Shown in pieces: positions 62,713-63,066 of a DNA stretch of 64,000 nt. The DNA lies in contig QZJU01000020.1 in the NCBI GenBank assembly GCA_003597955.1, forward strand, positions 62,001 through 126,000, read 5' to 3'. Numbering within the stretch: the first letter of the stretch is position 1; every line of letters begins with the position of its first letter. The notes beneath the pieces were generated by a model. The model saw only the letters and a list, made by a program, of their open reading frames with translations, had not been told where the DNA came from and did not search any database. The translations under genes were made by a program, and so were the position numbers. The stretch is from Candidatus Parcubacteria bacterium. Its GTDB lineage: Bacteria; Patescibacteriota; Patescibacteriia; PEXW01.

Positions 62713-62741
62713 TTGACAAAAACCTTGGGTTGCATTATGTT
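62713..62741 (+). promoter_or_regulatory. Promoter of the initiator tRNA
   Basis: TTGACA, 17 bases, TATGTT. Confidence 0.75.
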
Positions 62742-62783: not shown

Positions 62784-62858
62784 CGCGGGATGGAGCAGTA
62801 GCAGCTCGCCGGGCTCATAATCCGGAGGTCGGGGGTGCAAATCCCCCTCCCGCAACCA
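62784..62858 (+). tRNA. Initiator tRNA-fMet (CAT), unusual D and T loops
   Basis: 75 bases with encoded CCA. The C1-A72 mismatch and the sequence start CGCGGGA mark it as initiator. Two departures: the D loop is AGTAGCA, without the G18-G19 pair, and the T loop is TGCAAAT, with G instead of U at position 55. The anticodon stem has G29, G30 paired to C, but G31 is paired with U39, so the usual three G-C pairs are incomplete. Confidence 0.93.
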
Positions 62859-62989: not shown

Positions 62990-63066
62990 GGCAGGGTAGC
63001 TCAGTTGGTTAGAGCACGGGACTCATAAGCCCGGGGTCGAGAGTTCGAATCTCTCCCCTGCTACCA
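62990..63066 (+). tRNA. tRNA-Met (CAT, elongator)
   Basis: 77 bases with encoded CCA. GTAGCTCAGTTGGTTAGAGC, loop CTCATAA and T loop TTCGAAT. The general pattern fits elongator Met; a lysidine-type tRNA-Ile (CAT) cannot be fully excluded by eye. Confidence 0.92.

Follow-up and report, generated by a model that had tools for sequence, protein, structure and literature searches.

The initiator tRNA gene in this stretch of DNA raises the question of whether a tRNA elbow has been lost or built from different residues. In ordinary tRNAs, residue 18, intercalated between 57 and 58, is in contact with residue 55, while residue 19 pairs with residue 56 (PMC4810234). The G18–Psi55 pair has been termed invariant or universally conserved (PMC6337575, PMC7912444, PMC4810234). 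Within the window, meaning the whole 64,000-nucleotide stretch of the Candidatus Parcubacteria genome that was analysed, the initiator tRNA carries A at position 18 and G at position 55. The gene, its parts and its neighbors are located as follows.

62713..62741, forward strand: sigma-70-like promoter upstream of the initiator tRNA, TTGACA-17-TATGTT, assigned only by consensus match (10 of 12 positions)
62784..62858, forward strand: initiator tRNA-fMet(CAU) gene with encoded CCA (ARAGORN; Rfam RF00005); C1·A72, A11–U24 and a GGG/CCU anticodon stem read from the sequence
62797..62803, forward strand: seven-nucleotide D loop, A14 G15 U16 A18 G19 C20 A21, with A18 at 62800 and G19 at 62801 (sequence and register of relatives)
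62809..62825, forward strand: anticodon arm CCGGG-CUCAUAA-UCCGG, third pair G31·U39 (sequence; common to near relatives)
62836..62842, forward strand: T loop, U54 G55 C56 A57 A58 A59 U60, with G55 at 62837 and C56 at 62838 (sequence and Rfam alignment)
62990..63066, forward strand: elongator tRNA-Met(CAU), whose D loop (UGG) and T loop (UUCG) are ordinary (G18/U55), a contrast within the same cell (ARAGORN)
63243: tRNA-Leu(CAA), downstream of the elongator tRNA-Met

In standard numbering, the initiator reads CGCGGGA-UG-GAGC-AGUAGCA-GCUC-G-CCGGG-CUCAUAA-UCCGG-AGGUC-GGGGG-UGCAAAU-CCCCC-UCCCGCA-ACCA. It scores 57.8 bits against the Rfam tRNA model, and folding of the strand returned the expected cloverleaf, a result about secondary structure with no bearing on tertiary pairs. 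An unpaired 1–72 position, the purine 11 and pyrimidine 24 of initiators, here A11–U24, and a CAU anticodon are all present; as read from its sequence, C1·A72, A11–U24 and a G–C-rich anticodon stem mark this tRNA as an initiator. Three consecutive G–C pairs (29–41, 30–40 and 31–39) are typical of initiators without defining them. Here the first two are G–C and the third is G31·U39. This run of pairs is also known to vary in mycoplasmas, and nothing in the present data links G31·U39 to the change in the elbow. C1–A72, the G–U pair, the G at position 55 and an upstream promoter had all been noted earlier from the same DNA, and each was found again. The window's own initiator has U33. Many initiators of the class, including L053, L057, L058, L060–L064 and L066, carry C33 in place of the near-universal U33 (loop CCCAUAA); vertebrate initiator tRNAs have C33.

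The earlier note held that the D loop has no G18–G19 and that both contacts with the T loop are lost. The GG dinucleotide is indeed missing and residue 18 is A, but G19 is present, the earlier register having been shifted. The loop sits between the stems GAGC and GCUC in the same seven-nucleotide register as the AGUGGUA and AGUGGCA loops of this genome and its relatives. The partner of G19, C56, is also present, and the two would be expected to pair. When position 19 was allowed to be any base in a search across 379 genomes of the phylum, the 97 initiators with seven-nucleotide D loops were the same as those recovered when G19 was required. All have G19, which is invariant among such initiators in the phylum sample. 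The loss of both contacts is not upheld: G19 and C56 are kept, as are U54 and A58, and departures from the canonical elbow are confined to position 18 (A for G) and position 55 (G for U), altered together. An antiparallel pairing of G19–C20 with G55–C56 was considered and rejected, being opposed by the register of the relatives and the covariation with A18; in addition, many A18/G55 tRNAs have U or A at position 20.

The 97 initiators with seven-nucleotide D loops, counted in an even sample of the phylum (379 genomes), comprise 10 with A18 and G55, 87 with G18 and U55, and none of mixed type. The association is strong (Fisher p = 8e-14), though the sequences are related and independence is thereby overstated. 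G55 initiators were also scanned for across 84,980 species genomes. Among the matches listed, A18 was found in 110 of 114 readable cases (about 96%), a count that includes L140, whose loop AGCGAGCA was assigned A18 and G19 by eye. The remaining four (L077, L106, L170 and L183) have GG and lie outside the lineage of the window; rare intermediates or second copies, at least, can thus have G55 in the absence of A18. Viral contigs gave the same pattern: initiators selected for G55 have A18 in 119/119 readable cases among the matches listed (four were assigned by eye), and those selected for U55 have GG (G18) in 118/119. A scan of all viral contigs for seven-nucleotide loops combining A18 with any base but G at position 55 yielded just two copies of one tRNA.

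Families f32, f43, f53 and f123 each hold both A18/G55 and G18/U55, and the pair has therefore switched several times. A third combination, G18 with A55, occurs in the single initiator (L522) of genome G112, a member of the class. A57 accompanies nine of the 10 A18/G55 initiators as against 6/87 of the G18/U55 ones, a difference that kinship may explain. The change had been suspected of being coordinated, and the covariation confirms this. On comparative grounds, residues 18 and 55 are shown to act as a pair and the change to be compensatory, because both substitutions co-occur recurrently in Patescibacteria, other bacteria and phages.

A structural model for the pair is suggested by the UGNRA lonepair triloop: its G is commonly in contact with an A from outside the loop, which completes a composite GNRA tetraloop (PMC2258182). 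Positions 1–5 of the T loop, U54 G55 C56 A57 A58, agree with UGNRA, and an outside A covarying with G55 is available in the sequence as A18. We infer that these five residues form a UGNRA-type T-loop. A18 would slot between A57 and A58, at the site usually taken by G18, and by analogy would pair side-on with G55 to complete a composite G55-C56-A57-A18 resembling a GNRA tetraloop. The elbow and its exposed G19–C56 face would stay preserved. If the GNRA model holds, G55 would be accompanied by A18 because a GNRA loop ends in A. The search patterns themselves prescribed purine 57 and U54–A58 in part, and the conservation of these residues is no independent test of the model. The geometry of A18/G55 is drawn by analogy, and with it we consider it probable that this is a functional, conserved initiator in which G18–Psi55 has been swapped for A18/G55, G19–C56 and U54–A58 are kept, and a GNRA-like fold is reached through a UGNRA-type T-loop.

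Functionality, which had been thought probable, is supported by the genomic setting. The source genome is a patescibacterial draft assembly of 989,930 bases in 21 contigs, 98.5% complete. It gave 45 tRNA matches; the CAU tRNAs among those read out are two, the initiator and the elongator tRNA-Met at 62990, and the search for a second tRNA-fMet among the 45 returned none. For AUA codons there is a separate tRNA-Ile(UAU). Methionyl-tRNA formyltransferase (Fmt), the enzyme that formylates initiator tRNA, is present (TIGR00460, 247.6 bits; cut-off 201.5). When 95 relatives were searched at the DNA level, copies of the initiator with 99% identity turned up in five other genomes, which belong to its own genus, its own family and a further family (f22). 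These copies share the two unusual bases, and the elongator Met and Leu tRNAs again lie nearby. An identical or nearly identical initiator occurs in the named Candidatus Kerfeldbacteria genomes L119, L127, L128 and L144, and the window thus probably derives from a Kerfeldbacteria-like patescibacterium. The initiator with A18/G55 is very probably functional because it is both the sole initiator and conserved.

The same observations bear on two less favorable readings. The source is a single draft assembly in 21 contigs, and an assembly or base-calling error might be suspected, a concern already attached to this gene; the occurrence of the same two bases in independent assemblies, the four Kerfeldbacteria among them, excludes this for practical purposes. 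Alternatively, the initiator could be a second-copy, pseudogene-like or mobile-element tRNA, with a normal copy doing the work. Such an arrangement would fit Rhizobiales, Burkholderiales, Clostridia and Dependentiae, where an A18/G55 initiator usually stands beside a normal U55 initiator, as well as the many A18/G55 initiators on viral contigs. Here, nevertheless, no other initiator was found among the 45 tRNAs, and copies with 99% identity stand beside the same Met and Leu tRNAs in other genera and families. The cloverleaf and score are likewise not those of a pseudogene, and we regard this reading as highly improbable. In one Prevotella and one Muribaculaceae genome, the A18/G55 initiator is the sole match.

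Several of these occurrences have features of their own. The Rhizobiales A18/G55 initiators (L075, L100, L122 and L123, from Brucella, Phyllobacterium, Mesorhizobium and Falsochrobactrum) include some with U31–A39, which breaks the three G–C pairs. Phyllobacterium and Mesorhizobium also hold normal U55 initiators, which suggests that the extra copy is mobile or phage-derived. In Candidatus Dependentiae OFTM129 (L110), a tRNA cluster (Gly, several Leu, Phe and the initiator) has non-GG D loops and mostly G55. A normal initiator lies elsewhere in that genome, and the cluster has the look of a tRNA array that is virus-like or carried by an element. Viral contigs hold at least 120 initiator tRNAs with G55 (L278–L397), with A18 in every readable one. 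CAU tRNAs with A18/G55 were also seen in DPANN archaeal assemblies (L111 and L150; Diapherotrites, ainarchaeum). One of the genomes, G647, also holds a bacterial-looking initiator, and contamination of the DPANN assembly is possible.

The A18/G55 pair extends beyond initiators. It is found in the tRNA-Gly(GCC) of this genome, and in the relative G027 both the initiator and tRNA-Gly(GCC) have it. Elongator Met tRNAs of Adlerbacteria and other Patescibacteria carry the pair, as do several tRNAs of a Dependentiae genome. A further match in this genome with A18/G55, at G000:C17:38761 (L043, G000:C17:38741-38860), scores 38.9 bits, was called Ile(UAU) by ARAGORN and has a mismatched anticodon stem. 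A18/G55 is best described as a general alternative elbow and not one specific to initiation, because the pair is found in non-initiator tRNAs and in phage-encoded initiators. The proposal in the earlier note that this tRNA is adapted to changed initiation factors or a changed ribosome finds no support in such a distribution, which takes in tRNA-Gly(GCC), elongator Met, Dependentiae tRNAs and phage initiators. The full form of that proposal would have neither 18–55 nor 19–56 forming, leaving a floppy-elbow initiator tuned to altered factors or ribosomes. It can point to the D loop without GG, the T loop without U55 and the unusual G31·U39 in the anticodon stem. It is nevertheless very unlikely, given that G19 and C56 are present with G19 invariant, that positions 18 and 55 covary and do not drift, and that the same pair recurs in tRNA-Gly and phage initiators.

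The replacement of U55 also bears on tRNA modification. TruB is the Psi55 synthase. It was not found in this genome by a search that was positive in 14/14 control genomes. The one SpoU-family methyltransferase of the genome has TrmH as its best NCBIfam match, at 130 bits against a cut-off of 227, and is only a candidate TrmH. An A18/G55 elbow would depend on neither TruB nor TrmH: pseudouridine cannot be made from G55, nor Gm18 from A18. U55 is missing from nine of the 42 unique tRNAs of this genome, six having C55 and three G55. The C55 tRNAs (within the set L001–L045) are Val-UAC, Gly-CCC, Leu-UAA, Arg-CCG, Ser-CGA and Ser-UGA, all elongators. Among relatives, tRNAs other than U55 number 3/45 in G027, which has no TruB, and 2/44 and 0/46 in the TruB-positive G034 and G075.

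These counts give some weight to another course of events: once TruB was lost, U55 would no longer have been selected for, many tRNAs would have drifted at position 55, and A18/G55 would have become fixed wherever it made the tRNA stable again. TruB is absent here, with 9/42 tRNAs lacking U55 against none in G075, and in the class sample it is absent from 16 of 21 G55 genomes as against 41 of 127 U55 genomes (p = 2e-4, not tree-corrected). On the other hand, families f32, f20, f110 and f123 combine A18/G55 with TruB, the hosts of the phage copies may have the enzyme, and G034 has tRNAs without U55 in its presence. In the phylum sample, moreover, the difference is weak (TruB absent in 4/8 G55 and 15/72 U55 genomes, not tree-corrected). 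A18/G55 tends to accompany TruB loss without requiring it, and such loss is possibly a predisposing condition but not a demonstrated cause. Drift after TruB loss is compatible with the preferred reading, a compensated swap of the 18–55 pair, and we hold it to be a reasonable possibility at rather less than even chances. The broadest version of the preferred reading is offered in the same tentative spirit: A18/G55 may be a second natural elbow, Psi-independent and GNRA-like, that arose many times in Patescibacteria and phages and is favored in genomes without the 'universal' TruB, along with a wider loosening of U55 in their tRNA sets.

No earlier report of a natural A18/G55 class was found in the open-licence literature, although an earlier mention is possible. 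Suppressor tRNAs have reportedly been selected from randomised D and T loops. A natural swap in essential single-copy initiators implies that evolution can exchange the 18–55 pair while G19–C56 stays. It would connect the elbow of tRNAs with the UGNRA T-loops that occur in rRNA and riboswitches, and it leads one to expect tRNAs that neither TruB nor TrmH modifies. Patescibacteria without TruB make the need for Psi55, and for U55 itself, testable. In addition, tRNA annotation and the prediction of modifications would go wrong for such genomes and phages wherever U55 is taken for granted.

Compared with the canonical bacterial tRNA-fMet, the present initiator shares C1·A72, A11–U24, the CAU anticodon, a G–C-rich anticodon stem, U54–A58, G19 and C56, and differs in having A18/G55 for G18/Psi55 and G31·U39 as the third pair. 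With the UGNRA T-loops, or type R1 lonepair triloops, of rRNA and riboswitches (for example UGAGA in the TPP riboswitch; PMC2258182), it has in common the T-loop sequence U-G-C-A-A, which fits UGNRA, and A18 is available as a possible outside A. Here, however, the motif would lie within a tRNA elbow, with bulged residues 59–60 and G19–C56 as a second contact. Tertiary-pair replacements (PMC7566577) and the A54 that eukaryotic initiators carry (PMC7912444) are similar as linked natural swaps of 'invariant' pairs in a subset of tRNAs. Both concern positions other than 18/55, and the pairs of the former were reported as unseen in bacteria. Finally, tRNA-Pyl and the metazoan mitochondrial tRNAs without G18G19 or TPsiC (PMC7609411) also depart from G18/U55, but in these neither elbow pair remains and the cloverleaf is unusual, whereas the cloverleaf of the initiator described here is normal and its G19 and C56 are still in place.
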